From contig JAUQWO010000067.1 in NCBI GenBank assembly GCA_030835135.1, forward strand, positions 1 through 43,755: a stretch of 43,755 nucleotides of DNA, given 5' to 3'. The notes beneath the pieces are model-generated. The model made no database searches. It was given only the letters and a program-made list of their open reading frames with translations, and was not told the origin of the DNA. This stretch comes from Bacteroidota bacterium. GTDB lineage: Bacteria; Bacteroidota; Ignavibacteria; UBA10030; UBA6906. Below, piece by piece: positions 29,126-43,755 of this stretch (position 1 is the first letter of the stretch; every line of letters begins with the position of its first letter). A program made the position numbers and the translations under genes.

Positions 29126-30063
29126 GCCTGAAACAATGCCTCGGTGAAGTCCGCCGGACTGAACGGCTGCAGGTCGTCCACGCCCTCACCGACACCGATG
29201 TACCGGACCGGCAACTGCATATCGCGGGCAATGGCGAGGACGATGCCGCCCTTGGCGGTACCATCGAGCTTCGTGAGAACGATGCCGGTCACGCCGGAGG
29301 CGGCGCTGAAGAGCTTCGCCTGCTGGAGTCCGTTCTGCCCTGTGGATGCATCCAGAACGAGCAGGACCTCGTGCGGTGCCGCGGGGTACTGTTTCGCGAT
29401 CACGCGGCCGATCTTCTTCAACTCCTCCATGAGGTTCACGCGCGTGTGGAGCCGACCGGCCGTATCGATGATCACCACATCGGTCTTTCGCGCCGTGGCC
29501 GCCGCCACCGCATCGAACGCCACTGCCGCCGGATCTGCTCCCTGTTTCTGGATGACGATATCCGCACCGGCACGCTTCGCCCAGATCTCGAGTTGTTCTC
29601 CCGCGGCCGCACGGAAGGTATCCGCGGCAGCGATGAGCACCTTGTTCCCCGCGGCGACATACCGCCGGGCGAGTTTGCCGATGGTGGTGGTCTTGCCGAC
29701 ACCGTTGATACCTACCACGAGGATGACGTATGGACGCGCGGGCGGCAGCGCAAAGGGATCGGCACTCGCGGGCCCGGAGCCGGCGAGCTGCGACGTCACT
29801 TCCAGTTGCAGGAGTGGAAGCACACCCGACACATCCGCAGGCGGTGTGTCCTTCAATCGCCGGCGCAGTCCCTTCATGATCTCACCCGCCACGCCCGCGC
29901 CGACGTCGGCACCGATCAGGCTCTCTTCGAGCCGTTCGAGCAGATCCTCATCGATCTTCGGGGCACCGGTGAGGATGCGCGTGACGGTCCCGACGAGCCC
30001 CTCGCGTGTCTTTGCAAGACCCTCCTTCAATTTGCTGAAGCCCAGCGTGTCAAGAATACCCAT
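29122..30063 (-). CDS. ftsY: Signal recognition particle receptor FtsY
   Basis: The 313-residue protein has the NG domain: helical N-domain (about 15-90), G1 GINGVGKTTTIGKLA, DTFRAAAGEQL, DTAGRLHT, and TKLDGTAKGG near the end. It lacks the long acidic A domain of E. coli. It docks SRP-ribosome complexes at the membrane and hydrolyses GTP with Ffh. It sits between pgsA and mutL, in the purF operon. Confidence 0.97.
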   Translation of the reverse strand: MGILDTLGFSKLKEGLAKTREGLVGTVTRILTGAPKIDEDLLERLEESLIGADVGAGVAGEIMKGLRRRLKDTPPADVSGVLPLLQLEVTSQLAGSGPASADPFALPPARPYVILVVGINGVGKTTTIGKLARRYVAAGNKVLIAAADTFRAAAGEQLEIWAKRAGADIVIQKQGADPAAVAFDAVAAATARKTDVVIIDTAGRLHTRVNLMEELKKIGRVIAKQYPAAPHEVLLVLDASTGQNGLQQAKLFSAASGVTGIVLTKLDGTAKGGIVLAIARDMQLPVRYIGVGEGVDDLQPFSPADFTEALFQA

Positions 30064-30069
30064 GACGGG

Positions 30070-30612
30070 TCACCTTTTCGTGCGAATGACAGTAAGGAAT
30101 CGTTGGACGTATCCCGTGGTGGAGATCACGACCATGATCACGCTGAGCCAGGTGCCGATGGGGACGATGAGCATGGTATTGTCGATGAGGGCGAACAGCA
30201 GCGTGAACCCGATGACGCCCACCGCCCACTTGCCCGCCGTATTCGACGGGAGGACCTCCCCCGTCCGCCGGCGCAGATAGAGTCCGCCGGCAAGAATGAG
30301 CACGTCGCGTATCAGCAGGAGCAGCACGAACCATGCGGGCACCAGACCGAGCCAGAGCAGGACGAGCGCCATGACCGCCACGGCCACCTTATCCGCAAGC
30401 GGATCGAGGATCCGTCCCCACTCGCTCTCACAGTGCAGCCAGCGCGCGATGTCCCCGTCCAGTTTGTCCGTGATGACACCCAGGACGATGATGCCGACGG
30501 CCCACCATCGGGCGCCGGGAACATCCGCGAGCATCACATACGCGAACGGCACGGCGAGCAGGAGCCGGAGCATGCTCAGCGCGTTCGGTATCGTCCAGAA
30601 CTCACGCTTCAT
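30070..30612 (-). CDS. pgsA: CDP-alcohol phosphatidyltransferase, probably phosphatidylglycerophosphate synthase
   Basis: The 180-residue polytopic protein carries the full CDP-alcohol phosphotransferase signature DKLDGDIAR-x8-GRILDPLADK (DG, AR, G, D, D all present). The N-terminus WTIPNALSMLRLLLAVPF is typical of PgsA. It likely joins CDP-diacylglycerol and glycerol-3-phosphate. ATG 30612 has GGAAGAG just upstream and overlaps purF by 11 bases. Another CDP-alcohol substrate cannot be excluded. Confidence 0.9.
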   Translation of the reverse strand: MKREFWTIPNALSMLRLLLAVPFAYVMLADVPGARWWAVGIIVLGVITDKLDGDIARWLHCESEWGRILDPLADKVAVAVMALVLLWLGLVPAWFVLLLLIRDVLILAGGLYLRRRTGEVLPSNTAGKWAVGVIGFTLLFALIDNTMLIVPIGTWLSVIMVVISTTGYVQRFLTVIRTKR

Positions 30613-32092
30613 GCTCTTCCTTGGATTGGCGCACATCGACCTTCACCGGATACTGCCCGTTGAAGCACGCCGTACAATAGTGTTCCCCGTTCTCCCGCGG
30701 CACCGCGTCGAGCAGCTCCTCGATCGTGAGGTAGCCCAGGCTGTCGACGCCCAGTTCGTCCGCGATGGCATCGATGTCGCCGTGCTTCTCATTCGCGATG
30801 AGCTCGTCCTGTGTCGGGAAGTCCATGCCGTAGTGGCACGGATGCATGATGGGGGGGGCCGTGACCCGGAAGTGGACCTCCTTCGGAGCGGCCTGGCGGA
30901 TGAGCTGGACGAGCTGCTTGGAGGTGGTACCGCGGACGATCGAGTCGTCCACGATCACCACCACTTTGTCTTTCAGGACGCCCTTCACGATGTTGAATTT
31001 CGTCTTGACCTTGTTCTGCCGGATCTCCTGCACCGGCTGGATGAAGGTGCGTCCGATGTAGTGGCTCCGGATCAGGCCGATCTCCAGCTTCGCATTCCCG
31101 CCGAGCTTGTTGGTCTGCTGCACGAACCCCATCGTGGCGGTATTGCTTGAATCGGGCACGTTGATCACGATCAACTTCTCCCCGTCGGTCTTCGGCGTCA
31201 CCGGCCGCGCCGTCGCGAGCGCCTTCCCCAGTTTGCGGCGCACCTTGTCCACGCTGTGACCGAAGATCTGGCTATCGGGACGGGAGAAGTAGATGTACTC
31301 GAACACGCAGTGCGACGGGCGTGCCGGCTTGTCATCGATGCGGTAGGAGTGCGGGATCCCTGTCTTCAGCGTCGCATCATCGAACACCACGATCTCGCCC
31401 GGTTCCACATCACGCACATACTCGGCGTCGATGATATCGAATCCCACCGTCTCCGACGCGACCACGAACGCCCCTTCTTTCTTCCCGATGGCCAGCGGCC
31501 GGAACCCCTGGTGGTCGCGCGCCACGATCAACCGGTTGTCTGCCAGGATCACCAGGGAGAAGGCCCCTTCCACCTGCGACAGGGCATCGCGGATCTGTTC
31601 CAGCTGGTCCGTCCTGGTGCTGCGTGCGATCAGATGCAGGATGACCTCGGTGTCGGACGTGGTCTGGAAGATCGTTCCCGCGTCCTGCAGGCGCTGACGG
31701 ATCGCACGGAAGTTCGTGAGATTGCCGTTGTGGGCAATGGCGAGGTTGCCGGATTTGTAGAGCACGGTGAACGGCTGGACGTTCGCCTTGTTGTTCGCGG
31801 CGCCGGCGGTGGAGTAGCGGTTGTGCCCGATGGCCGCGCTTCCCTTCAGCACATCCGTGAAGATCCGGTTGTCCGAATAGACATCGTTCACGAGTCCGAA
31901 GTCCTTGTGCACATGGAAGCGTGGCCGCTTCTGTGCCGGGTCGAACTCCGATGTCACGATCCCCGATCCTTCCTGTCCGCGGTGCTGCTGGGCAAGCAGA
32001 CCGTAGTAGGTGAGGTGCGCGGCGGAATGGTGCCCGAACACGCCGAACACGGCACAATGACAGCGAGGTTTGTCTATCGCAGGATCACTCAT
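30602..32092 (-). CDS. purF: Amidophosphoribosyltransferase (PurF), Fe-S type
   Basis: The 496-residue enzyme makes phosphoribosylamine from PRPP and glutamine, the first purine step. Aligned by eye to the Bacillus enzyme, CAVFGVFGH places the catalytic cysteine at 13, after a 12-residue propeptide with an extra Cys11. LTYYGLLAQQHRGQEGSG follows. The PRPP loop is VVIVDDSIVRGTTS. Cysteines in SHCVFEYIYF, MHPCHYGMD and YCTACF match the [4Fe-4S] ligands. ATG 32092 starts a run of close or overlapping genes (pgsA, ftsY, mutL). Confidence 0.96.
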   Translation of the reverse strand: MSDPAIDKPRCHCAVFGVFGHHSAAHLTYYGLLAQQHRGQEGSGIVTSEFDPAQKRPRFHVHKDFGLVNDVYSDNRIFTDVLKGSAAIGHNRYSTAGAANNKANVQPFTVLYKSGNLAIAHNGNLTNFRAIRQRLQDAGTIFQTTSDTEVILHLIARSTRTDQLEQIRDALSQVEGAFSLVILADNRLIVARDHQGFRPLAIGKKEGAFVVASETVGFDIIDAEYVRDVEPGEIVVFDDATLKTGIPHSYRIDDKPARPSHCVFEYIYFSRPDSQIFGHSVDKVRRKLGKALATARPVTPKTDGEKLIVINVPDSSNTATMGFVQQTNKLGGNAKLEIGLIRSHYIGRTFIQPVQEIRQNKVKTKFNIVKGVLKDKVVVIVDDSIVRGTTSKQLVQLIRQAAPKEVHFRVTAPPIMHPCHYGMDFPTQDELIANEKHGDIDAIADELGVDSLGYLTIEELLDAVPRENGEHYCTACFNGQYPVKVDVRQSKEEHEA

Positions 32093-32146
32093 CGTCGGTC
32101 TCCGGCCTCAGCCACGGTTGAACAATGGGACATGAACAAAATGACG

Positions 32147-32175
32147 GCGGGCTCCCGGATCGTCCGGCAGCCCGC
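32147..32175 (-). terminator. Strong stem-loop between the lectin gene and purF
   Basis: GCGGGCT and CCGGA pair with TCCGG and AGCCCGC around one mismatch and a three-base loop. On the minus strand it is followed by CGTCATTTTG, so it may end the lectin-like gene transcript, but the T run is short. Confidence 0.5.
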
Positions 32176-32222
32176 ACAGACACTCCTTCAATGTGACGGG
32201 GTCCGCGCACGGTGCGCCGCAC

Positions 32223-32588
32223 CTACTTGACCCCCACGGCGATCCAGTTCCCCCACACGGACCCGACGCGTCCCTCGCCCCAGGTCTTGACCCGAAGGGT
32301 GAATCCCGTCTTCGTCACACGGAAGGCAGAGGCATGCAACCGCACCGTGTTGTCCGGTCCGGCGGTGGCATCGTAGCCCGAGAGAGAAACGAGGACGCGG
32401 GGTGGGACCGTGAACGCCTTTTCGAATGTGACTTCTTCGATGTACGTTCGTTCGCCGGTACCGCCATTCAGGGACCACCCCTCCTTGTCGGGTTCGCCGC
32501 TGTATTCACCCGCGAGGATGGTCTGTGCCCCGGCGCCTGCCACGCAGACACAGAGGAGAAACAATGCCGTACACATGTAGTTGATCAT
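32223..32588 (-). CDS. Small secreted H-type lectin-domain protein
   Basis: The 121-residue protein has a signal peptide (cleavage after AGA, residue 21). A domain resembling the H-type lectin family follows: FEKAFTVPPRVLVSLSGYD, then ASAFRVTKTGFTLRVKTW and a closing WGNWIAVGV, the usual conserved Trp-Ile-Ala segment. Such domains bind sugars such as GalNAc and are best known from snail agglutinin and discoidins. It is monocistronic between a divergent glycosyltransferase and a hairpin. Identification is by pattern recognition; binding specificity cannot be read. Confidence 0.75.
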   Translation of the reverse strand: MINYMCTALFLLCVCVAGAGAQTILAGEYSGEPDKEGWSLNGGTGERTYIEEVTFEKAFTVPPRVLVSLSGYDATAGPDNTVRLHASAFRVTKTGFTLRVKTWGEGRVGSVWGNWIAVGVK

Positions 32589-32700
32589 GACCTATGCTCC
32601 GGAACGGATGAGTGTGGCGTCCGTGCCATCACGAAGAGTGTTCACTGTGCTCAATGTGTCCAATATACGGAAATGGAGCCAAGGTCGCAACCGCCGCTCC

Positions 32701-32729
32701 TTGCATCCGCGGTCGGAATTCAGTATCGT
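32701..32729 (+). promoter_or_regulatory. Candidate promoter of the glycosyltransferase gene
   Basis: TTGCAT (32701-32706), a 17-base spacer and TATCGT (32724-32729) would start transcription about 30 bases before the GTG at 32767, which supports that start over longer in-frame ones. Confidence 0.4.
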
Positions 32730-32766
32730 TTCCTGTCCGCGCACCCCTTCACAACCGCAGGTCCTC

Positions 32767-33873
32767 GTGCTCTCTGCAGTGCTCATCACGCTCACCGTCA
32801 TGTATGCGGCCGGCATCGCTATCACCGCGCTTGTCGCATTGATCGCCCGTCATCGGACTGGTGCGGGCCGGCGTCCCTTCGTGTCGGTGGTCGTTGCCGC
32901 ACGCAATGAGGAGCACAATATCGGCCGGTGCCTGGAATCCATGTCGCGCCTCACCTGGCCGCGCGACCAGCTCGAAGTGATCATAGTGAATGACCGGTCG
33001 GAGGATGCCACGCCGGCGATCGTGCGCGAGTACGCGGCACGGTTCCCGTTCATCGCCCTCCTGTCCGCGGCGCCCGGCACCGGCCATCTCGCCGGCAAGA
33101 CCAACGCGGTCACCCAGGGGATCGATGCCTCGAAGGGTGAGATCATCATGATGACCGATGCGGACTGCGCCGTGCCACCTTCATGGATCGAGGAGACGGT
33201 GAAGTACTACACGGCGGACGGGATCGGGCTCGTCCCGGGCTTCACGGCCATCCGCGCGCGGAACCTGTTCGAGGCGATCCAGACCATCGATTGGTTCGCG
33301 CTCTTCACCGTTGCGTCCGCCACGAATTCCATGGGTTTTCCCGTCACTGCCGTCGGCACGAACTTCTCCGTACGGCGTACCGCGTACGAGGCCGTCGGTG
33401 GCTACCGGAAGATCCCCTTCAGCGTCACGGAAGACTACGCCCTCTTCCATGCCGTGACCTCGCACCCCTCGTATCGGGCGGTGTTCCCCATGGACCCCGG
33501 AACGATCGTCACGAGTGAACCCTGTCCGACCTGGAAGGACCTCTACCGGCAGCGGAAGCGCTGGTTCACCGGTGGGAAAGGAATGGACCTGAAGAGTGTC
33601 GGGATCTTTGCGGTGATCTGGCTCATGCACGCAGGCATCATCGGCGGCCTCATCCTGAATGCTCCCGTGGCGATGGTCGCTCTCGGGATCAAGGCAGCGG
33701 CGGACCTCATCCTCATGCTCCCGGGGATCGTGCGCTTCCGGAAGCCGGCGCTGCTGGCGGCATTCCCCTTCTACGAGATCTACTTCTTTCTGTATGTCAT
33801 GCTGTTCCCCCCGATCGTCCTGATCCACCGGAACGTCGTCTGGAAGGACAGGGACTTCAAAGCGAACGGGTGA
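32767..33873 (+). CDS. Membrane family-2 glycosyltransferase
   Basis: The 368-residue protein has an N-terminal helix (about 2-26) and a GT-A domain with VSVVVAARNEEHNIGRCLESM, MTDADC (DxD, 131-133), VTEDYAL and RQRKRW (QxxRW-like). Two or three C-terminal helices follow. This is the layout of processive or cellulose-synthase-like GT2 enzymes that add sugars from nucleotide donors at the inner membrane. The start is uncertain: the frame is open to 32581, but the region before 32767 does not look like protein and holds a promoter-like sequence. No pathway neighbours are present. Confidence 0.85.
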   Translation: MLSAVLITLTVMYAAGIAITALVALIARHRTGAGRRPFVSVVVAARNEEHNIGRCLESMSRLTWPRDQLEVIIVNDRSEDATPAIVREYAARFPFIALLSAAPGTGHLAGKTNAVTQGIDASKGEIIMMTDADCAVPPSWIEETVKYYTADGIGLVPGFTAIRARNLFEAIQTIDWFALFTVASATNSMGFPVTAVGTNFSVRRTAYEAVGGYRKIPFSVTEDYALFHAVTSHPSYRAVFPMDPGTIVTSEPCPTWKDLYRQRKRWFTGGKGMDLKSVGIFAVIWLMHAGIIGGLILNAPVAMVALGIKAAADLILMLPGIVRFRKPALLAAFPFYEIYFFLYVMLFPPIVLIHRNVVWKDRDFKANG

Positions 33874-33921
33874 GAGCACGGACGGCACCCCGGCGGGTCC
33901 GCAGGCAGGGAAGGAAAGAGA

Positions 33922-33958
33922 AAGGGCGTCTGTCCCGGTCCACGGGGCAGACGCCCTT
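33922..33958 (-). terminator. Terminator after the AAA+ regulator, possibly bidirectional
   Basis: Arms 33922-33936 and 33944-33958 pair over 15 bases with one G-T type mismatch and a seven-base loop. On the minus strand TTTCTCTTTCC follows. It separates the convergent glycosyltransferase and regulator genes. Confidence 0.75.
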
Positions 33959-33990
33959 GGTATGTTCAGGGCCTCGTGAGGGGCCGCACG

Positions 33991-35013
33991 TTAGGACCGC
34001 GTGCGGGCACTCGCGATGCCGAGGCGTTTCAGCTTGTACCGGAAGGTCTGTTCGGTCATGCCGAGGAACTGCGCGGCCTTCGACTGGTTGAAGCCGAACT
34101 TCTCGAGGGAGCGTTCGATGATCCCCTTCTCGATCACGTCCAGCGACTTGTCCAGAACGAACTCCTGGCCGGCCATGATGTTGTTGATCATCTTCACCAC
34201 CTCGGTCTTCTCGTCCAGCAACTCCGGCGGCAACACGAACCGTCCGTCCGTCGAGAAGAGCACGCACTTGTCGATCACCGATTTCAATTCGCGCACGTTC
34301 TCGCGCCATGGCTGGCGCACGAGCACGTCGACGGCATTGATATCGATGGCCAGTTCCGGCATGTTCATCTCACGGCAGATCTCCGCGGTGAAGTGCTTCA
34401 CCAGCAGCGGGATATCCTCCTGACGCTGGCGGAGCGGCGGGATATCCACCCGGTCGAGGTCCTTGATCTTCGCGTACAGCTCATCGAGCAGCTTGCGCTG
34501 GTCGAGGAGCACCGAAGGCTCGGCTTTCAGGGTGAAGATCACCCGGAGGTCGCCCGCCGCGGCAGATTCCGCGCGTCTGGACTTCCGCTCATTGATGAAG
34601 GACAGGACCTTCATCTGGCTGCGGAAGGAAGCATCCTCCAGGTTCTCGATCAGCAGTGTGCCGCGCGGCAGCAGGTCCAGCACGGATGCTTTCGGTGCGC
34701 CCGCGGCGGTCTGCAATCCGCGATCGCCGCCAAAGAGGATCTGTTCCAGCTCCTGGTCATCAGCCACGGACATGTTCACGGACAGGAACGGTCCGTCGCT
34801 GCCCACAGGCTTGCCATGGAGGTAGATGTTCTTCGCGACAGCCCCCTTGCCGACGCCGCCTTCGCCGACGATGACCACATCGCGGCGCGACTTTGCCAGG
34901 ACCGAGATCTGTTTCACGAGCGCATCGACCGCCCTTGATTTCCCAACGATCGGGTATTCAAAGGCATGCTTCCCCTTGCCTGCGTCGTTGCCCTTATGTT
35001 CTTTTGGTTCCAT
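33991..35013 (-). CDS. AAA+/Fis-type regulator, degenerate sigma-54 activator-like
   Basis: The 340-residue protein aligns with the central and DNA-binding parts of sigma-54 activators but has no receiver domain. Key positions are changed. Walker A is GEGGVGKG; Walker B reads GTLLIENL where GTLFLDEI is expected; the GAFTGA loop is replaced by GLQTAAGA; arginine-finger residues before IPPLRQRQEDIPLL are missing. ENVREL and a Fis-like HTH (NQSKAAQFLGMTEQTFRYKLKRLG) remain intact. It may therefore bind DNA without ATP-driven remodelling of sigma-54 polymerase, for example as a TyrR-like or structural regulator. It lies 21 bases after the membrane protein gene, probably in one operon. Confidence 0.85.
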   Translation of the reverse strand: MEPKEHKGNDAGKGKHAFEYPIVGKSRAVDALVKQISVLAKSRRDVVIVGEGGVGKGAVAKNIYLHGKPVGSDGPFLSVNMSVADDQELEQILFGGDRGLQTAAGAPKASVLDLLPRGTLLIENLEDASFRSQMKVLSFINERKSRRAESAAAGDLRVIFTLKAEPSVLLDQRKLLDELYAKIKDLDRVDIPPLRQRQEDIPLLVKHFTAEICREMNMPELAIDINAVDVLVRQPWRENVRELKSVIDKCVLFSTDGRFVLPPELLDEKTEVVKMINNIMAGQEFVLDKSLDVIEKGIIERSLEKFGFNQSKAAQFLGMTEQTFRYKLKRLGIASARTRS

Positions 35014-35034
35014 ACGGTTTCCGTAGTAGTTTGA

Positions 35035-36219
35035 TCAATTCCCGGCGTCGGATTTCGGACGTTCGTAAAGGGCGAAGAGCCGTCCGTGGACAACCTTCCG
35101 GTTGAAGAAACTTTCCACGACGATCGTGTCGAAGGCGTCGCGCCACCGGGTGATCCCGGCCGGACGCGCCTCGAGTTCGGTCTCGTAGAACTCCCCCTTG
35201 ACAGACATGATGAAGCGGAGACGAAGAGCGAAGAAGACGGCGATCAGGAAGCACACCACCGACGTCGCATACTGTCCGGCCACGAGGATCTCCGCGAACA
35301 CGTTCCACTCCAGCAGTTTCACCAGACTGGCATGGTGCAGGATCTCCATGCTCGTCGACAGCAGGAAGAGGAACATCATCTTCTCGATGTAGGCTCCCTG
35401 GGGCGGGTCCCGCATGTACTGGTAGCCGAAGAAGAGCAGGATGAATCCGACGGTCAGGACGCCCATGAAGATCATATACGAGTGCGCGGGCTTCCAGAGC
35501 AGCATGAGGTAGTTGTCGCCTTCCAGATACGGGAAGAGTTCCTCCACCCTCGCCAGACGTGCATCATTATAGAGCGTCGCGACCTCGACACCATCCCGGT
35601 ACACGAACAGGTTCGTCCGCTCGGCGAGCTGTGCTGGTGTCGGCTCCACGTCATTGTGCGCGTTCTTGAAATCCATCAGCGCATTGTCCATCTGCTTCCA
35701 GTCACGGGTGTCCTGCGTCGTGTACGCATACTCGGGATCGACCAGGAATCCGTTGAAGTAGGTGGCGAAGAAGGTGCCGACGATCGCCAGGGCGATGAAA
35801 TACTTTTGCGCGGTCTTGAAATCCCTGAAGAGCGTGTCGACGGAAAGATACACGATCGCGAATGCCAGGAAGAAGCCATAGGCGCCGTACCCGACATACT
35901 GCTCGAAGTAATGGTTCGCCTTCGCGGCTTCGGTGAACAGGACGCGACCCTTCCCCACAAATGGACCGACCCACCCGATGATCGCAATCGAAAAGAACAC
36001 GCCGAAGTTCGCAAAAATAAACTTGTTCTTCGTGGAGGGTTCATGCCGCATGATGGCAAAGGAGATCAGCGCCAGGAGAGCCTGGAACGAGGTCACCACG
36101 AAGAGCGACAGCTCCACCTCCTTGTGCGGCAGCGTGAGGAGCGCAGTCGCATAGGTCGCAACAAGTGCTACCCAGATCCAGAGGATCTTGCGAAGCGATA
36201 TGGAGAATTGTGTTTTCAT
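35035..36219 (-). CDS. Polytopic membrane protein of unknown function
   Basis: The 394-residue protein has about eight hydrophobic helices: five in residues 10-155, a polar segment of about 85 residues (near 160-245) and three more up to about 340. A soluble basic tail follows. Charged and His residues lie in the last helices (MEILHHASLVKLLEW). I recognise no family. ATG 36219 is directly preceded by GGTGAG and by a very strong promoter with a leader of only about 11 bases. It is followed by the degenerate AAA+ regulator, so it may be a sensor or transporter linked to that regulator; this is inference from position only. Confidence 0.8.
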   Translation of the reverse strand: MKTQFSISLRKILWIWVALVATYATALLTLPHKEVELSLFVVTSFQALLALISFAIMRHEPSTKNKFIFANFGVFFSIAIIGWVGPFVGKGRVLFTEAAKANHYFEQYVGYGAYGFFLAFAIVYLSVDTLFRDFKTAQKYFIALAIVGTFFATYFNGFLVDPEYAYTTQDTRDWKQMDNALMDFKNAHNDVEPTPAQLAERTNLFVYRDGVEVATLYNDARLARVEELFPYLEGDNYLMLLWKPAHSYMIFMGVLTVGFILLFFGYQYMRDPPQGAYIEKMMFLFLLSTSMEILHHASLVKLLEWNVFAEILVAGQYATSVVCFLIAVFFALRLRFIMSVKGEFYETELEARPAGITRWRDAFDTIVVESFFNRKVVHGRLFALYERPKSDAGN

Positions 36220-36236
36220 CTCACCGTTCCTGGGCA

Positions 36237-36265
36237 AATATAGGTAGCCACCCCCTTGCAGTCAA
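36237..36265 (-). promoter_or_regulatory. Strong promoter of the membrane protein/AAA+ operon
   Basis: On the minus strand, TTGACT (36265-36260), 17 bases and TATATT (36242-36237) continuing as TATATTTG. This is a near-consensus sigma-70 promoter and a perfect TAnnTTTG Bacteroidota -7 box. The start codon follows within about 11 bases of the predicted start. Confidence 0.75.
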
Positions 36266-36380
36266 GAGCAATCCGCAAAAAACCTTCAATCAGCGTAGAA
36301 TTGTGCTATGTATCACATTGAATATCGGTGGGATTTCGTAGAGAAACAACATTGATGCCACATGATAACGAGAGTGTAAA

Positions 36381-36413
36381 CGGCGAAATGTGGCGCCTTT
36401 TCGCCGCTTTTTC
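36381..36413 (+). terminator. Terminator-like hairpin with no known gene upstream
   Basis: CGGCGAAA (36381-36388) pairs perfectly with TTTCGCCG (36399-36406) around a ten-base loop and is followed by CTTTTTC. It points in the plus direction although no plus-strand gene precedes it. It may insulate the downstream promoter or end a small RNA. Confidence 0.5.
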
Positions 36414-36422
36414 AGAATTGCC

Positions 36423-36451
36423 TTGACAAATCCTGTGCGGTTGGCTATATT
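36423..36451 (+). promoter_or_regulatory. Strong promoter of the repeat-peptide gene
   Basis: A consensus TTGACA (36423-36428), a 17-base spacer and TATATT (36446-36451, followed by TCG). Transcription should start near 36458, about 260 bases before the start codon. Confidence 0.78.
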
Positions 36452-36455
36452 TCGT

Positions 36456-36467
36456 ATCCATATGGAT
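36456..36467. promoter_or_regulatory. Operator-like palindrome at the predicted transcription start
   Basis: ATCCATATGGAT is a perfect 12-bp palindrome placed on the predicted start site of the strong plus-strand promoter, where a repressor would block initiation. No known operator consensus is recognised. Confidence 0.45.
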
Positions 36468-36582
36468 GCCTATACGCACCTTCGTGTTCCACAGGGGGGA
36501 GGCAATCTCAAGGGTCACTTCCCCGGTTCCTGCTTCGACGGTTCGCCCCAGTCTACCTTATAAAGTAGTACAGACGCCATAG

Positions 36583-36653
36583 CACACGTGTACCCTCTCG
36601 CCCCGTGACTGGCGACGATCGCCCCAGGGACGTGTGTATCCGCACATGCGGAT
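36583..36653 (+). promoter_or_regulatory. Structured 5' leader of the repeat-peptide gene
   Basis: CACACGT (36583-36589) can pair with ACGTGTG (36630-36636), enclosing GGCGA-CGA-TCGCC (36611-36623). ATCCGC-ACAT-GCGGAT (36638-36653) follows. No known riboswitch class is recognised, but the clustering before a gene with a strong ribosome-binding site suggests post-transcriptional control. Confidence 0.35.
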
Positions 36654-36720
36654 CCCGAGAAGAATGAAAACTCTACTCACCACGAACCACACATTCACCG
36701 ACTTAACTCACGGAGGAGTC

Positions 36721-36945
36721 ATGTCCACGAACGCACGTCGTTTCCGCTCACTCGCCATCACGATCCTTGCCGTTGCCGCAACGAACGCAGCCATTGCGTT
36801 TGCAAGCGGAGTGCCGGTAGGCAAGCCGGATTCCCCGCGCCCGAAGACGAGCGGCGTGCCCGTTGGCAAGCCCGATTCTCCGCGCCCGGATGCCGAGAAG
36901 ACCAGCGGCGTACCGGTCGGCAAGCCGGATTCTCCGCGTCCGTAG
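36721..36945 (+). CDS. Small secreted peptide precursor with three identical 13-residue repeats
   Basis: The 74-residue product has a signal peptide (Arg-rich start, Ala/Ile/Leu core) ending AFA at residue 28. The predicted mature 46 residues are SGVPVGKPDSPRP three times, joined by KT and DAEKT, then stop. Cleavage after AFA would start exactly at the first repeat. ATG 36721 follows GGAGGAG at an ideal distance; in-frame ATGs at 36634 and 36664 lack the signal-peptide logic. A strong promoter, palindrome and structured leader precede it. The repeats are coded by different synonymous codons. I recognise no family; the form recalls precursors that release several copies of one peptide, or a small cell-wall peptide. 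Confidence 0.85.
   Translation: MSTNARRFRSLAITILAVAATNAAIAFASGVPVGKPDSPRPKTSGVPVGKPDSPRPDAEKTSGVPVGKPDSPRP
36805..36942 (+). repeat. Three coding tandem repeats of 39 bases
   Basis: Units lie at 36805-36843, 36850-36888 and 36904-36942, with spacers of 6 and 15 bases. Each pair of units differs at five bases, all silent third positions, while all 13 residues are identical. Confidence 0.95.
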
Positions 36946-37126
36946 TTGCGCGAGCGTTTCGCTGCAACTGCAGGGACCAGGAGTTCACCACGGGACAAGG
37001 AGTACCTGACCCGCGTGCATGAGACAGTGTGCGGAATTTGCGCATGACGTGCTTTTTCCGCATACTTTCTTCAGGTGCTATGCTGTCTCCTTACTCCATA
37101 TCTCCCACGTGGTGTTCCCGTTCGTC

Positions 37127-38086
37127 ATGCCGCTGAAGCAACTCCTGATCCACATCGGATTGTTCCTCCTGACATTCCTTACCACATCCTTCGCGGGTGT
37201 GGCATGGCTGAACCTGGATCCATTGGAATTGCTGAACCTGCAGGAGGGTCTGCTGTACGCGACCCTCCTGCTCTTCATGCTGTTGAGTCATGAGATGGGA
37301 CACTATGTCGCCGCGCGCGTGCATGGCGTGGACGCGACACTTCCCTTCTTCCTGCCGTTCCCCACGCACCTCGTACCTGTACCGGTCTTCCCCTTCGGCA
37401 CTCTCGGTGCTGTCATTCAGTTGCGCTCCCGTGTGCCAAGCCGTCGCGCGCTGCTGGATATCGGCGCAGCCGGGCCGATCGCAGGATTCATCGTGAGCGT
37501 TGCGTATCTGTACATCGGATTCCGCACCCTGCCGTCGATCGAGTACCTGTACACGATCCATCCGTTGTACCGCGGACTCCCGGCGATCCCGACCGATGGC
37601 CTCGCCTTCGGTTCGAGTCTGCTGTACGATCTCATGCGATCGTTCACGCCGTCACCCGGAACGTTCGTCCCTCCGTTGAACGAGGTGTACCACTATCCTT
37701 TCCTGTGTGTCGGATGGTTCGGGCTGTTCATCACATCGATGAACCTGTTGCCTGTCGGACAGCTCGACGGTGGGCACATCACGCGGGCGCTCTTCGGCGA
37801 CCGATCGCGCATCATCAGCCGCTCGGTTCTCGGTCTGCTGGCACTGATCGGGTTGCTGGGATTCCTCCCCCTGGTGGGTTTGCCTGACACCTACGGATGG
37901 AGCGGGTGGCTGTTCTGGGCAGGGATGCTCTACTTCGTCTTCGAGCGCAAGAAACGACGTATGATGGCGGCCGTGCCCCTGCGCGACGATACGCCGCCGG
38001 GCCCGGTGCGTACGGCCATCGGATGGACCTGCTTCGTGATCCTGGCACTCGGATTCGCCGTGGCGCCCTTCACGATCGTGATGTGA
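37127..38086 (+). CDS. M50-family (site-2 protease type) membrane metalloprotease
   Basis: The 319-residue protein has about seven hydrophobic segments. The zinc motif HEMGH is at 55-59, and NLLPVGQLDGGH carries the third ligand Asp214, the standard M50 pair. GAAGPIAGF lies between. No PDZ domain is seen. Such enzymes cut helices within the membrane, often releasing sigma factors from anti-sigma proteins. ATG 37127 (MPLKQLLIH) is preferred over upstream in-frame starts. It follows the repeat-peptide gene by 181 bases on the same strand, and its end overlaps the convergent CHAT gene by 17 bases. Confidence 0.9.
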   Translation: MPLKQLLIHIGLFLLTFLTTSFAGVAWLNLDPLELLNLQEGLLYATLLLFMLLSHEMGHYVAARVHGVDATLPFFLPFPTHLVPVPVFPFGTLGAVIQLRSRVPSRRALLDIGAAGPIAGFIVSVAYLYIGFRTLPSIEYLYTIHPLYRGLPAIPTDGLAFGSSLLYDLMRSFTPSPGTFVPPLNEVYHYPFLCVGWFGLFITSMNLLPVGQLDGGHITRALFGDRSRIISRSVLGLLALIGLLGFLPLVGLPDTYGWSGWLFWAGMLYFVFERKKRRMMAAVPLRDDTPPGPVRTAIGWTCFVILALGFAVAPFTIVM

Positions 38087-41000
38087 CGCGCGACAGGCGC
38101 CATCTCCTCCATATATATCCGCCCACGACAGAGATCACCGTCGCGCACCCCAGCAGGATCAACCACCGATCCCAGCCGCCCGTGCTCCCGGCAACAGCAG
38201 GCACCACGAGCGCGCCACCATCGCCGTACAGCTGGAAACCAGCCCACACCCGGTACGAGTGGTGGCCACGGGCGATCATCGTCTGCATCGCGCTCCGCAC
38301 CGCATCCCCTTTCGTCTCCCCTTTCGCCAGTGCACCATAGAACGCGGCGAGGAACTCCACCGCAAGATCATCATCAACACTCCACCTCGCCGCAAGGACG
38401 GTACCGGCCCCCGCTTCCAGGAACGCGTGTGCGATGCTCTCCACATCTTCCGTCAGACTCATCTGCCCTGCATAGCATACCGGAAGAACCACAAGCGACC
38501 CCTGCAACTCGAGGGGAAGGATGTCCTCCGGACCAAGATCACCGTCGGAACCGGTCGATGGCGAAAGATACAGGGCGTGCTCCTTCCGGCCCGGAGACCG
38601 CGCAGCCCCATGCGTCGCAAGATGAATGATCCAATAGCCGGGCGCACTTGCGCAGAAACGCACATCCGTCGCATCCGCCCCCCAGAGGATATCCACGCGT
38701 GAACCGAAATGGTCCTCAACGAGGGACATCTCCCGCACCGTGCCCGGTAGAGGCTGCATCAATCCGGACGCATGCTGTTCCTCACCCGTCGAGACTCCGG
38801 GGATCCCTGGAAGACGCGGCTCCATGAGCGGGAGATCCACGTCACCCACCACAAGGACCCTGCCGTTGTTCGCGCGTGGCAAGGCCCCCCCGCTCCGGGC
38901 CGATGTCAGAGCCGGTCGATACACCACGGCAAACCGGTCGATCAATCGTCGCCGGGGCGCGGCGGCACGAAGATCCATCAACGATTCGAATGGGATCAGT
39001 GTATGAGGACCGTCCCCGATCACCACAAGCTGATCCCGGCTGCCCGCGATCCGGTCAACCATCAGGAGCACCGGCTCCAGTGTGTGTGTGAGCTTTCCGG
39101 CCGGAGAGGTCGGATCCGCGTCTCCAGCATGCGCATCCTCCCCACCCGTGATCCTCCGCGCGAGCGCGGCAAATCCGGATCGGCCAACAGGGATCCGGCA
39201 GAACGTCACGGTGTCACGAGTCATCCCCATCACGGTCGTCTCGTCGGAGCCGTACACGAAGTCGATCGCGACCTCGTCCGCACCGACGCGCACGCAAGGG
39301 TCCGCACGATCATCTCCCCCCGGTACGTGCTCCTGATATCCCTGTCGCACCACATCATCCCACCTGAGGAACCGGGGGAGCGCATCCGTAAAGAATGTGC
39401 ACAGCGCACGGAATGCCGAGTCGGAGAATGCGACATCATCCAGTGATCCCCGCAGCATCGTGCGATGCACGAGAGCGGACGTGGAGCGGCGGGCACGGTC
39501 CAGGGAGCGGAGGTCATCCGGGGCAATGCCCGCAAGGTCCGGGCGGGAAGGAACCACCGGCGTCAGCACATCTTCGCGCGCCCGGGACATGATCGCCGAA
39601 GCGAGCCGCACGGCACCCACGGCGAGGAAGGCGTCGGCCAGATCTGCGTGCTGCGCGATGTACCATGACCGCATCTCGTGGGTCAGAGAGCAGAGATAGC
39701 GCAGACGACGCACGTCCTCCAGACATGCGAACGCACGTTCGAATTCCGCTCGGGCGCGGACGGTGTCTCGCCGGATGGCAGCGATCCGGCCGAGCAGGAT
39801 CCGGGATCTCTTTTCGGAGAACCGGTCGCCTGTCTGCGTGGCATGTTCCAGCGCGATTGACGCCCACGCCGCCGCGGACCGGGTCCCGGTGCGCACATCG
39901 TATGTGTGCGCCATCGCGAGCGCTGCGCTCCGCAGCTCGCCCGTATCCTGACAATCGCGGCCCAGCGCCCATTGTCGCTGGAAGTGCATGCGGGCAGCCC
40001 GTGCATTCCCGCACTGGAGTTGGATCTCCCCGAGGACACCTTCACAATTGCCGGTCAGGTCGCGGTCGGAACCCATCGATCCGGCGAAGCGCAAGGCTGT
40101 CCGGCCATACCGCATGGCAAGGGCGGAGTCTCCCATGGAGGAGTGGATCGACGCCAGCGTTGTATTGAGCCGGCATCGGTCATGGGAAGCAAACAGCATG
40201 TTCTCGAGCGTGCTTTCCGCCTGGATCCCAAGGACGATCGCGATCCGTTGCCCCCCGATCCTCGAGAGGATCCAGGCCGCGTCGATCGCGGCGCCCGCGT
40301 GAAGCCGCGGGTCAGCCCGACCGTCCAATTGCAGCAGCATGCGCGAACAGTAGTCGAGCGCTTCGGCATACCGGAACGATTCCAGAAGAAGGTCGAGACG
40401 GAGCGCGTACGCCGCAAGGATCCCATCGTATGCACCGGCCCGTCGGAAATGCTCCGCGGCGGAGTCCGTCGCCGCGAGAGCGCGGCGGATATCACCCTGT
40501 CCGGCTGCATCACGGCCGCTCTGCAGGAGGAACTGCCCCCGCCACTCGAGCATTCCGAGATCCTCCACCATGCGCAAGGCCTCATGGCATTGCACCGCTG
40601 CGGAGTCCGGCATTGCCGAGACCGCGAGTGCGCTCATCCGGACCCATTGCAGGAATGCCATCCCTTCCCAATCGCCCCGGGCGCGGGCATCCCTGGTGGC
40701 CCGGTCTACGAGACGGAGACCATCCATGTCCGGCCCCGCCGCACAGCGGATCGCGAGATGCAGCGACTCGACCCGGGGATCGGGCGGACCGCTCCGTCGT
40801 GCCTGCTCGATCGCGTTGCGTGCCTTGGTGAGATCCCATTGACTCCAGTAGGCCAGCGCGATCGCATACCACACCGGTCCCGCTCTGTCGTGATCATGCG
40901 TCAGCGCGAGCAGATGAGAGATCGCGGCATCCCGCCCATGCAACTTCTCATGCATTTCCTGGATCCCGGCATACGCGAGATAACGATTGCCGCCATACTC

Positions 41001-41351
41001 GAGTGCGGTCTGAAAATGGGCGTAAGCTTCCATCCACCGTGCGCCGTGCACATCGAGCCACGCCATGGCGCTGACCGCATCTCCCACATTCCATCCCTTC
41101 CGTACGCACGCCCCCAGGATCGAATCCGCTTCGTGTTCCCGACCCGCGTACTGACCCGCTTCAGCGAGGAGAGCATAGAATGATGCCCGGTCGGGGACCG
41201 AATCGATGATCCTGCGGGTTGTGAGGAAGGCCTCATCACATCGGCCTTCGCCCAGCAGGCGACGGATGGCAACGGCGCGTTCATCAACGGCGCATGTGGC
41301 GGTCGCAAGACCACCGATCAGGAGGATGGCGAGGCTCAGGATGATCCGCAT
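38070..41351 (-). CDS. Exported TPR-CHAT protein (caspase-like protease domain) with a C-terminal membrane anchor
   Basis: The 1093-residue protein begins with a signal peptide (RIILSLAILLIGGLATA). A long helical TPR-like array follows (about 30-620), with repeats such as ALAYWSQWDLTKARNAIEQA. A CHAT domain (about 740-1047) carries the caspase dyad: His914 in HLATHG and Cys959 in LPVCYAG, where LSACETG is more usual. AARWSVDDDLAVEFLAAFY follows, also typical of CHAT. A helix at about 1063-1081 and a basic RRWRLSR tail imply that TPR and CHAT lie outside the cytoplasm. It is the third gene of the sigma/anti-sigma operon, six bases downstream. CHAT proteins cut proteins in immunity or signalling; the target here is unknown. 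Confidence 0.88.
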   Translation of the reverse strand: MRIILSLAILLIGGLATATCAVDERAVAIRRLLGEGRCDEAFLTTRRIIDSVPDRASFYALLAEAGQYAGREHEADSILGACVRKGWNVGDAVSAMAWLDVHGARWMEAYAHFQTALEYGGNRYLAYAGIQEMHEKLHGRDAAISHLLALTHDHDRAGPVWYAIALAYWSQWDLTKARNAIEQARRSGPPDPRVESLHLAIRCAAGPDMDGLRLVDRATRDARARGDWEGMAFLQWVRMSALAVSAMPDSAAVQCHEALRMVEDLGMLEWRGQFLLQSGRDAAGQGDIRRALAATDSAAEHFRRAGAYDGILAAYALRLDLLLESFRYAEALDYCSRMLLQLDGRADPRLHAGAAIDAAWILSRIGGQRIAIVLGIQAESTLENMLFASHDRCRLNTTLASIHSSMGDSALAMRYGRTALRFAGSMGSDRDLTGNCEGVLGEIQLQCGNARAARMHFQRQWALGRDCQDTGELRSAALAMAHTYDVRTGTRSAAAWASIALEHATQTGDRFSEKRSRILLGRIAAIRRDTVRARAEFERAFACLEDVRRLRYLCSLTHEMRSWYIAQHADLADAFLAVGAVRLASAIMSRAREDVLTPVVPSRPDLAGIAPDDLRSLDRARRSTSALVHRTMLRGSLDDVAFSDSAFRALCTFFTDALPRFLRWDDVVRQGYQEHVPGGDDRADPCVRVGADEVAIDFVYGSDETTVMGMTRDTVTFCRIPVGRSGFAALARRITGGEDAHAGDADPTSPAGKLTHTLEPVLLMVDRIAGSRDQLVVIGDGPHTLIPFESLMDLRAAAPRRRLIDRFAVVYRPALTSARSGGALPRANNGRVLVVGDVDLPLMEPRLPGIPGVSTGEEQHASGLMQPLPGTVREMSLVEDHFGSRVDILWGADATDVRFCASAPGYWIIHLATHGAARSPGRKEHALYLSPSTGSDGDLGPEDILPLELQGSLVVLPVCYAGQMSLTEDVESIAHAFLEAGAGTVLAARWSVDDDLAVEFLAAFYGALAKGETKGDAVRSAMQTMIARGHHSYRVWAGFQLYGDGGALVVPAVAGSTGGWDRWLILLGCATVISVVGGYIWRRWRLSRVTSRS

Positions 41352-41357
41352 GCCGGT

Positions 41358-42182
41358 CTACCGTCGCGCGTCCAATACTGCGAGGATGCGGCGCGCGTCC
41401 GGCACGAAGACGCCGCCATGCTCCACGATCCGTCGCAATCGAGTCCGGGCCTCATCCGGCTCGCCCTTCATCAGGAATGACCTCGCCTCGAACCAGGCGA
41501 TCTGTTCGCTCTCACCGGGTGATGGCATGCCCGATCGCGCATTGTCCAATGCCGCCAGCGCACTGTCCACAAGGGAACGGTCGTAATGAAGGCCCAGGCC
41601 CACGAAGTCTTTTCTGGCCCCCATGAGGAAGCCCGCCGCGCGTATGATGTATACCGTTGGCCGCTCCGGTGCGGCGGCATGCACGGCAAGGTACCAATCA
41701 GCACGCCGGACAGCTTCTTCCCATTCACCCTCATAGAGATACGCGCGCATCGTTGCGACTTCCGCGGTCGACCCGTCCCGAATGCGCAAATGCAGTTCTC
41801 CGGCATCCATCCGCGCAAGGTGCGCGTACGGCGGAGCCAGGGCACCATCGATCAACTTCCCCGCACCGAGGATCATCAGGAGCACGGCCGCAACGCGCAG
41901 GAGCACGAGCCCCGGTCCGGCAGCCTCCCGGAGTGTACGTCCCCGCTCCTTCGTCTGATCGTACCGTGTCGGACGCTCCTCGCGCATCCCTTCACCCATC
42001 ATCAGGATGATGAGATCCAGCTCCTTCGACAGTTCATCGTCCGCAGCCACCCGGTCAAGGAGTTGCCGCGCTTCATCGGCACTCAGGCGTCCATGCGCCA
42101 GTTCCACAAGAAGTGAATGGTCATCCCCTTGCCCGCCTCCACCGCGCCGGACAGCGTTGAGCTCACCGCCTCCTGTCGTCAT
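41358..42182 (-). CDS. Membrane anti-sigma-like protein with a helical C-terminal domain
   Basis: The 274-residue protein has a cytoplasmic helical N-terminus (LAHGRLSADEARQLLDRVAADDELSKEL) resembling an anti-sigma domain without zinc ligands. One membrane helix lies at about 92-111 (LVLLRVAAVLLMILGAGKL). The extracytoplasmic part (about 115-274) looks TPR-like (YLYEGEWEEAVRRADWYLAV, FLMKGEPDEARTRLRRIVEHG). ATG 42182 overlaps the sigma-factor stop as ATGA. Position directly after an ECF sigma gene and one-helix topology support an anti-sigma role; the N-terminal similarity is weak. Confidence 0.7.
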   Translation of the reverse strand: MTTGGGELNAVRRGGGGQGDDHSLLVELAHGRLSADEARQLLDRVAADDELSKELDLIILMMGEGMREERPTRYDQTKERGRTLREAAGPGLVLLRVAAVLLMILGAGKLIDGALAPPYAHLARMDAGELHLRIRDGSTAEVATMRAYLYEGEWEEAVRRADWYLAVHAAAPERPTVYIIRAAGFLMGARKDFVGLGLHYDRSLVDSALAALDNARSGMPSPGESEQIAWFEARSFLMKGEPDEARTRLRRIVEHGGVFVPDARRILAVLDARR

Positions 42183-42715
42183 AGGCCACGCTCCGCAAAG
42201 AACTTGCGAATCCTTTTCAGTGCCGCATCCTCCCTGCTCTTCAGGGTCGAAACCGGCGCACCGACGATCTGTGAGATCTCGATGAAAGTCAGACCAGAGA
42301 AGAACCGGAGCTTCACGATCTGGTAATCCTGTTCACTCATCGATTGCAGGACCGCCTTCAGTGCCGCACGCTCCTCCTTCTGCTCCAGGCCCGCCACATC
42401 GCCCGTCGACTCGAGGAGGCCGATCCCTGTCGAACCTTCATCGAACTCACACACCCGTTGGCCACGCTGATATGCCTGACCGGCACGGTTCAGCATCGCG
42501 CGGGCCACGTAGTTACGCACATGTGCGATGGACTCGAACCCGACATCCCTCCGGGCAAGCAACGACCCCATGATCGCGTGGAGGATGTCCTCCGCCTCTT
42601 CCGTCGGGAGTTTCGCGGTACGCCCAAGGTTGATCCAGAATGGGCGGTAGCGCTGGTACGCGCTCACGATCAGACTCGTGTAAGCGTCCACGCAAGGAGG
42701 CTCATCTCTGTGCAT
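42179..42715 (-). CDS. ECF-type RNA polymerase sigma factor
   Basis: The 178-residue protein has sigma region 2 (about 20-85; AEDILHAIMGSLLARRD, HVRNYVARAMLNRAGQAYQR) and region 4 (about 125-172; LQSMSEQDYQIVKLRFFSGLTFIEISQIVGAPVSTLKSR), with no regions 1 or 3. It directs polymerase to a regulon probably including its own operon. ATG 42715 is preferred, with AGGA eight bases upstream; GTG 42763 is also in frame. It is the first gene of the operon with the anti-sigma-like and TPR-CHAT genes. Confidence 0.88.
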   Translation of the reverse strand: MHRDEPPCVDAYTSLIVSAYQRYRPFWINLGRTAKLPTEEAEDILHAIMGSLLARRDVGFESIAHVRNYVARAMLNRAGQAYQRGQRVCEFDEGSTGIGLLESTGDVAGLEQKEERAALKAVLQSMSEQDYQIVKLRFFSGLTFIEISQIVGAPVSTLKSREDAALKRIRKFFAERGL

Positions 42716-42859
42716 CCGGATGGTCCTGAGCAATCGTCCGGTGAATGGTTTGGGGCCGGTCACGCCTGGCGGTCGCGAAACGACCGCGCTCCCCGGGCCC
42801 GCGGCCTGCCGGGCCCCTGATACTGCTACACGCCACTGACAGGATTTCCGAAACGGTGG

Positions 42860-42892
42860 GTCAGAGTCAGGAGATCCCCTGCAGACTCTGAC
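42860..42892. repeat. Inverted repeat upstream of the ECF sigma operon
   Basis: GTCAGAGT-CAGG (42860-42871) pairs with CCTG-(CAG)-ACTCTGAC (42878-42892): 12 base pairs with a three-base bulge and six-base loop. No T run follows on either strand, so it is more likely an operator or RNA element than a terminator. Confidence 0.6.
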
Positions 42893-42994
42893 GAAAAGTA
42901 GTGAGGGGAACAGAGAGAATCAACCGTCGCGGGGCCGGGGCGGTGCGCACGTCACGCCACACGGGTTTCTCCTGTGACAGCCATCAACCGCGCA

Positions 42995-43023
42995 TTGCAT
43001 CTTCACTCGCCATTCCCTAGTTT
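42995..43023 (+). promoter_or_regulatory. Candidate promoter of the 43079 gene
   Basis: TTGCAT (42995-43000), a 17-base spacer and TAGTTT (43018-43023). Spacing is ideal; the -10 is weak by E. coli rules but near the TAnnTT pattern of Bacteroidota. Confidence 0.35.
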
Positions 43024-43078
43024 CCGGTCAGGTGTACAACTCCACCATTCCATTCCTGACATCTTCGGCGGTTCATCC

Positions 43079-43755
43079 ATGACCCGGCACACGTCCTCCA
43101 CTACCCTGCGTTCTCATTGGATCCTGTTCGTCATCGTCCTCATCGCTTCGCCCGTCCGCGGACAGGAGGATCAGTTCCTCAACGCCTTTGCGCCAGGCCG
43201 CGAATACTTCATCCTGCGCAGCGGCAACGCGCGCATGATCATCGAGAGCAACACGGCAGGGACGCAACCCGCCGTCACATATCTCCTCTTCGACGCGAAC
43301 AAGCCGTGTCAGACGCTCCGCAAGGAGCGCGCGTTCAACTACGAGCATGGACGCAACTGCACATCGAGCGCCCTCGAACTGATGCTCGCCGGCACCCGCT
43401 TCACCGCGGTGCCGCACACCACGCAGGTCCGCTGGGTTCGTACCAACGGGATACCGACGGTGGAAGCACGGTGGTGGGCCGGTGGCATTCGCGTTACGGA
43501 GTCATTCCTTGCCCTCGCGGAGGGCGGCACGTTCCTCCGGCGCATCCTCTTGGAAGGTGCCGACATTGCCGGACCCGACACCGTCCGCGTCCGACTGTCG
43601 CTCCCGTCCACGTCCACGGTGAGCAGCGGCGCTCTGCTGGCCACGATCTCGGGGAACGCCGCCCTTGCCATCGGCCTGATGCCTCCGGCACAGGGATCGG
43701 CACGCGCCGACGATGGATCCATCGTGTCGGCTCCCATCGCGCTCCGCCCGGGCGG
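43079..43755 (+). CDS. Secreted protein of unknown function (C-terminus cut off)
   Basis: The frame from ATG 43079 stays open for 225 codons to the window end. The signal peptide is clear (hydrophobic WILFVIVLIASP, cleavage after VRG at about residue 28). The mature part is beta-rich, with segments such as VEARWWAGGIRVTESFLAL and FLRRILLEGADIAG. These loosely recall the N-terminal beta-sandwich of large glycoside hydrolases, but I cannot assign a family from this fragment. It is divergent from the sigma operon and could be one of its targets; no sequence evidence shows that. Confidence 0.75.
   Translation, partial: MTRHTSSTTLRSHWILFVIVLIASPVRGQEDQFLNAFAPGREYFILRSGNARMIIESNTAGTQPAVTYLLFDANKPCQTLRKERAFNYEHGRNCTSSALELMLAGTRFTAVPHTTQVRWVRTNGIPTVEARWWAGGIRVTESFLALAEGGTFLRRILLEGADIAGPDTVRVRLSLPSTSTVSSGALLATISGNAALAIGLMPPAQGSARADDGSIVSAPIALRPG

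Follow-up and report, generated by a model that had tools for sequence, protein, structure and literature searches.

The closest described counterpart of the locus reported here is found in type III-E CRISPR, where an RNA signal causes the TPR-CHAT protease Csx29 to cut Csx30, which inhibits an ECF-type sigma factor (PMC10028731). It has been proposed that this cut relieves the inhibition of the sigma factor (Craspase/DiCASP, comprising Csx29, Csx30 and CASP-sigma; PMC10028731). CHAT genes are also found, along with subtilase and carboxypeptidase genes, in the genomic context of the ECF54 group of sigma factors, for which proteolytic control without an anti-sigma factor has been proposed (PMC8999054). 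Many Bacteroidota carry CHAT proteases, but outside CRISPR the bacterial members have been little studied. Our literature search, outside which most subscription papers lay, found no description of a periplasmic CHAT protein paired with an anti-sigma factor.

In the window (the whole stretch of 43,755 nucleotides analysed here), an ECF sigma factor, a single-pass anti-sigma factor and a 1093-residue TPR-CHAT protein are encoded in this order on the minus strand. As in Craspase, a TPR-CHAT Cys/His protease, a sigma inhibitor and an ECF-type sigma factor are thus encoded together. Csx29, however, is RNA-guided via Cas7-11, whereas the CHAT protein of the window carries a predicted signal peptide and membrane anchor, and its neighbouring anti-sigma factor spans the membrane. 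With the RseA/DegS/RseP pathway of sigma-E, and with RsiW and RsiP, the locus shares an ECF sigma factor, a single-pass anti-sigma factor, a proposed periplasmic first cut and the presence of a site-2 protease; the difference is that the first cut would here fall to a cysteine protease of the CHAT family whose gene neighbours the pair, and not to a serine protease with a PDZ domain or to a signal peptidase. CalpL, a type III CRISPR protease with a SAVED domain, reportedly cuts a sigma-factor inhibitor upon a cyclic nucleotide trigger. Both CalpL and the CHAT protein of the window are proteases paired with a sigma-factor inhibitor (the cleavage being a proposed one in the window), but fold and trigger differ. 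The likeness to ECF54, judged by gene context, lies in an ECF sigma factor with CHAT genes nearby, but the pair in the window has an anti-sigma factor.

The positions and the tight coupling of the three genes, as given in the original prediction, were correct. The sigma gene shares its last 4 bases (ATGA, 42179-42182) with the start of the middle gene, and 6 bases separate the middle gene from the CHAT gene. The features of the locus are collected in Table 1.

Table 1. Features of the sigma/anti-sigma/CHAT locus and of the adjoining peptidase gene, in window positions
Feature	Position	Strand	Basis
ECF-type sigma factor gene	42179..42715	-	TIGR02937 E 5.4e-14; Pfam Sigma70_r4 E 1.4e-9; ATG start
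Anti-sigma factor gene, 274 residues	41358..42182	-	Anti-sigma profile match; AlphaFold and Foldseek TPR
Anti-sigma domain core, residues 21-61	42000..42122	-	hhalign aligned region
TM helix of anti-sigma factor, residues 93-111	41850..41906	-	Hydropathy 2.24; helix 90-114 in AlphaFold model
Predicted periplasmic TPR domain of anti-sigma factor, residues 140-272	41367..41765	-	pLDDT about 90 over most; Foldseek YbgF TPR 2xev
Predicted exported TPR-CHAT protease gene, 1093 aa	38070..41351	-	Translation, Pfam, hydropathy
Predicted signal peptide region of CHAT protein, residues 1-21	41289..41351	-	Hydropathy 2.3 over residues 3-21
TPR solenoid of CHAT protein, residues 24-596	39564..41282	-	AlphaFold helices; weak Pfam TPR matches
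CHAT protease domain, residues 768-1044	38220..39050	-	PF12770
Dyad codons of CHAT protein, His914 and Cys959	38610-38612 (His914); 38475-38477 (Cys959)	-	Placed in translation
Predicted C-terminal membrane anchor of CHAT protein, residues 1063-1081	38109..38165	-	Hydropathy 1.89; basic tail after
M50 (site-2-type) peptidase gene, tail to tail with CHAT gene	37019..38086	+	PF02163 E 2.6e-20

The predicted sigma factor gene was borne out, its product scoring 52.1 bits against TIGR02937 (sigma70-ECF), above the cut-off of 42.9. Pfam Sigma70_r4 matched strongly, and Sigma70_r2 was absent from the matches at E up to 1. An earlier start at an in-frame GTG (42763) is possible. The window genome contains 20 sigma-ECF genes above the cut-off in 4.9 Mb.

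The middle protein has a single hydrophobic segment, and Pfam gave only weak TPR matches for it. At other CHAT loci, we took the proteins encoded directly after the sigma gene and built a profile from their N-terminal domains, which was searched against the open frames of all loci. The middle protein matched it with an hmmsearch E of 1.8e-4 and its relative at L041 with E 9.7e-6, the remaining orthologues being weak when taken singly (E 0.015 to 3). When the middle protein was compared with the same profile by hhalign, a probability of 88% was obtained over 41 columns. No zf-HC2 (ZAS zinc motif) match was found in the middle protein or its orthologues, and the zinc ligands are absent; this excludes the ZAS subtype alone, as zinc-less class I anti-sigma factors exist. 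After the TM helix, AlphaFold gave a well-predicted helical domain, for which the best structural matches by Foldseek were TPR domains, YbgF being the first (TM-score by target 0.83-0.84; with E-values of 0.02 and up, the match rests on fold and not on significance). Between the helix and the TPR domain (stretch 112-139), Arg135 is invariant in five orthologues. Profile and model identify the middle protein as an anti-sigma factor with a predicted cytoplasmic zinc-less anti-sigma domain, one TM helix and a predicted periplasmic TPR domain, in keeping with the one-helix anti-sigma-like membrane protein foreseen at the outset, and it probably holds the sigma factor inactive.

In the 1093-residue protein, the CHAT family PF12770 was matched with E 1.6e-38 (about 133.2-137.1 bits, cut-off 24). 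Its N-terminus is hydrophobic, and the hydrophobic segment near the C-terminus is followed by RRWRLSR. Such a combination is in keeping with export and a C-terminal anchor, the topology being read from hydropathy and charge only. The signal peptide, the C-terminal anchor and the His914/Cys959 dyad named in the original prediction were all recovered, as was the predicted export to a membrane-anchored position. The N-terminus is likewise hydrophobic in the CHAT proteins of L106, L107, L108 and L109, and a similar C-terminal anchor was seen in that of L033. His910, His914 and Cys959 are invariant across 21 long CHAT homologues of the order to which the window belongs. The same prediction regarded the export of a CHAT protein as unusual. 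This did not hold, since nearly all CHAT proteins of the sampled Bacteroidota start with a signal-like segment, and export alone is therefore not remarkable; a role of the protein in cell death, also suggested, found no support.

AlphaFold modelled the TPR part of the CHAT protein as a helical solenoid with pLDDT mostly 70-90. The model of the CHAT domain was unusable (pLDDT mostly below 50), the six-row alignment having too few sequences. A PDB sequence search with P0001 gave no matching chain, so that close kinship with Csx29 is not established; when the PDB was searched with the full alignment, all of the 60 matches listed were TPR proteins. A reading of the locus as a defence system was rejected, as PADLOC had no match for four genes and no CRISPR-like repeats were found in 30000-43755.

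Conservation of the gene order was followed in relatives. Sigma, middle and CHAT genes occur together in five genomes of the family (L033/L106, L034, L035, L037 and L041), in line with the expectation that the same trio would be found elsewhere in conserved order. A sixth family genome (L038) has the sigma gene and the start of the CHAT gene, so that a sigma orthologue is present at all six loci. At L033 the middle gene overlaps another frame and was identified by reading the sequence. The named contigs among these six loci are metagenome-assembled Ignavibacteriae and Bacteroidetes. Beyond the family, a nearly identical pair of loci from another family of the class (L128 and L130) has the co-directional order, the anchor and the TPR anti-sigma factor as in the window. 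At L035:7943-11121, the CHAT gene of the trio lies in two frames (685 and 362 aa), by assembly error or a real frameshift.

The CHAT proteins of the order form two groups, one of long exported proteins that keep the dyad and one of lipoprotein-like proteins of ~860-930 residues that lack it. The check for loss of the dyad in homologues favoured the original prediction, the residues being invariant in the long proteins, with the qualification that the dyad is absent from the separate lipoprotein-like clade. Linkage was counted for full-length CHAT genes with usable flanks, a sigma gene being scored within 2.5 kb. Such a gene was found for 16 of the 18 dyad-intact CHAT genes, 15 of which also have a single-pass anti-sigma factor beside them. 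By chance, we estimate from the 20 sigma-ECF genes in 4.9 Mb that near 4% of genes would lie within 2.5 kb of a sigma gene; the linkage exceeds this. At loci with merely partial CHAT matches, a sigma gene was within reach in 0/6. Gene order and strand vary between clades (co-directional, convergent or divergent). The distances of CHAT and sigma proteins correlate (Mantel r 0.61, n=34, 0/5000 permutations; with 28 representatives, r 0.44, 0/5000), and since related rows are not independent, these figures and the linkage counts describe co-inheritance and are not clean probabilities.

A sigma gene also lies within 2.5 kb of 20/23 dyad-less CHAT genes of the order, and only one of these has a TM anti-sigma factor beside it. 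There, the gene after sigma typically encodes an exported protein, and the one that was scanned is LiaF-like/toast-rack. These lipoprotein-like proteins resemble the CHAT protein of the window in export and sigma neighbour, but they have lost the dyad and have the LiaF-like/toast-rack partner instead of a TM anti-sigma factor. As they keep the sigma neighbour, sigma linkage alone is no proof of proteolysis. Conserved dyad-less pseudo-proteases of this lipoprotein-like kind, with a LiaF-like/toast-rack exported protein and a sigma gene as neighbours, were seen on contig C71 of the window genome (L060:6905-9598) and at L059, L082, L093 and L101.

Across the phylum, CHAT proteases were found in 61 of 118 sampled Bacteroidota genomes. 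In a sample from outside the order, a sigma gene lay within 2.5 kb of 10/19 anchored CHAT genes compared to 3/22 unanchored ones (Fisher p 0.017). The other nine anchored genes had no sigma match within that distance; among them, an anti-sigma gene adjoins the CHAT gene at L126, and one is about 4 kb off at L146. At loci with an anti-sigma neighbour, the anti-sigma factor has a TPR domain in 13/15 cases with an anchored CHAT protein and in 1/20 others, a count that leaves out L114 and L121. At these two loci the CHAT protein has no anchor and a TPR anti-sigma gene lies at a greater distance, so their inclusion would weaken the association. Independent-pair tests on the CHAT tree were not significant for anchor and sigma or for anchor and TPR, the traits shifting few times. 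The recurrence of similar sets across the phylum suggests an unstudied route of signalling from the envelope to the genes. At L112, L114 and L136, two or three CHAT genes stand in a row.

From these results the following mechanism may be proposed. The anti-sigma factor would use its cytoplasmic domain to sequester the ECF sigma factor at the inner membrane. The CHAT protein, exported via its signal peptide and kept in the inner membrane through the helix at its C-terminus, would lie on the same side of the membrane as the TPR domain of the anti-sigma factor. On a periplasmic signal, perceived either by this TPR domain or by the TPR solenoid of the CHAT protein, His914/Cys959 would become active, and the CHAT protein would cut the anti-sigma factor outside the membrane. 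A site-2 protease and then cytoplasmic proteases would finish the anti-sigma factor, freeing the sigma factor. We give an even chance to the central proposition, that the sigma factor is released when a protease tethered in the periplasm cuts the anti-sigma factor, as Csx29 cuts Csx30. In its favour we count the conservation of the trio, the 16/18 linkage, the distance correlation, the anti-sigma profile match and TPR domain, the invariant dyad, the anchor associations, the Csx29 precedent and the standard RseP present in the window genome (G000). Against it stand the few independent shifts, the 9/19 anchored CHAT genes without a sigma gene, the dyad-less clade that has one, and the want of a shared promoter motif. 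The early suggestion that the anti-sigma protein is cut by the CHAT protease is thereby supported as regards a plausible target; the cleavage itself we infer by analogy.

The main rival places the CHAT protein at the output. The sigma/anti-sigma pair would sense envelope stress via other proteases, RseP being available for ordinary degradation of the anti-sigma factor, and the sigma factor would turn on the CHAT protein, which would degrade damaged or foreign envelope proteins or harm the cell. It is common for an ECF sigma factor to drive the operon that encodes it, and the CHAT gene of the window lies in the sigma operon; in many relatives it forms a separate convergent transcript, as a regulon member could. 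However, when upstream regions of sigma and CHAT genes were searched for a common promoter motif, only close relatives matched and none was found in the larger set (a weak test), and output by itself leaves the pairing of anchored CHAT proteins with TPR anti-sigma factors unexplained. We regard this explanation as rather unlikely. Less probable still, and to our minds improbable, is a CHAT protein that acts as sensor or scaffold, binding the anti-sigma factor through TPR contacts and stabilising or destabilising it without a cut. TPR domains on both proteins and the sigma neighbour retained by the dyad-less CHAT proteins would agree with it, but a pure scaffold has no need of the dyad that the long proteins keep invariant, and the dyad-less ones have no TM anti-sigma partner. 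That the genes are merely still close, in a neighbourhood inherited from an ancestor and with no functional tie, is very improbable: phylogenetically corrected tests have little power and about half of the anchored CHAT genes elsewhere are without a sigma neighbour, but the linkage survives differing gene order and strand and long divergence of both CHAT and sigma proteins, and it is missing (0/6) at the partial-CHAT loci.

The recurrent link between anchored periplasmic CHAT proteins and sigma/TPR-anti-sigma pairs yields a direct prediction, with one protease, one substrate and one readout. If this is true, envelope stress signalling would gain a new class of site-1 protease, and the Csx29/Csx30 switch of CRISPR would seem to be built on an older cellular design. 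A broader reading, which we hold as tentative and below even chance, is that of a phylum-wide Bacteroidota system, in which an anchored periplasmic caspase-like protease would be dedicated to making the first cut in an anti-sigma factor with a TPR domain, forming the envelope counterpart, and possibly the source, of the Csx29/Csx30/sigma switch.

The M50 gene adjoins the CHAT gene, tail to tail, also in L033, L034 and L036. Its product is without a clear RseP match (TIGR00054 E 0.033). Between most genomes the peptidase shows 53-65% identity, a conservation far above that of the trio, and its gene is also present in family genomes in which no such trio was found. As a dedicated partner of the trio it was rejected: in G012, G017 and G019 the gene lies on contigs other than those with the CHAT genes found there, and the window genome has its standard RseP. 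The M50 peptidase is probably outside the module.

Beyond the M50 gene, a small exported-looking protein is encoded at 36634-36945 (+), which ends with SGVPVGKPDSPRP repeated three times; at the DNA level the repeat is about 49 nt long. At 33991-36237 (-) there follow genes for an activator of the sigma-54 type (340 aa) and for a multi-TM protein of 400 aa without a Pfam match. In L033 and L036, genes similar to this pair in size and order likewise lie past the M50 gene.
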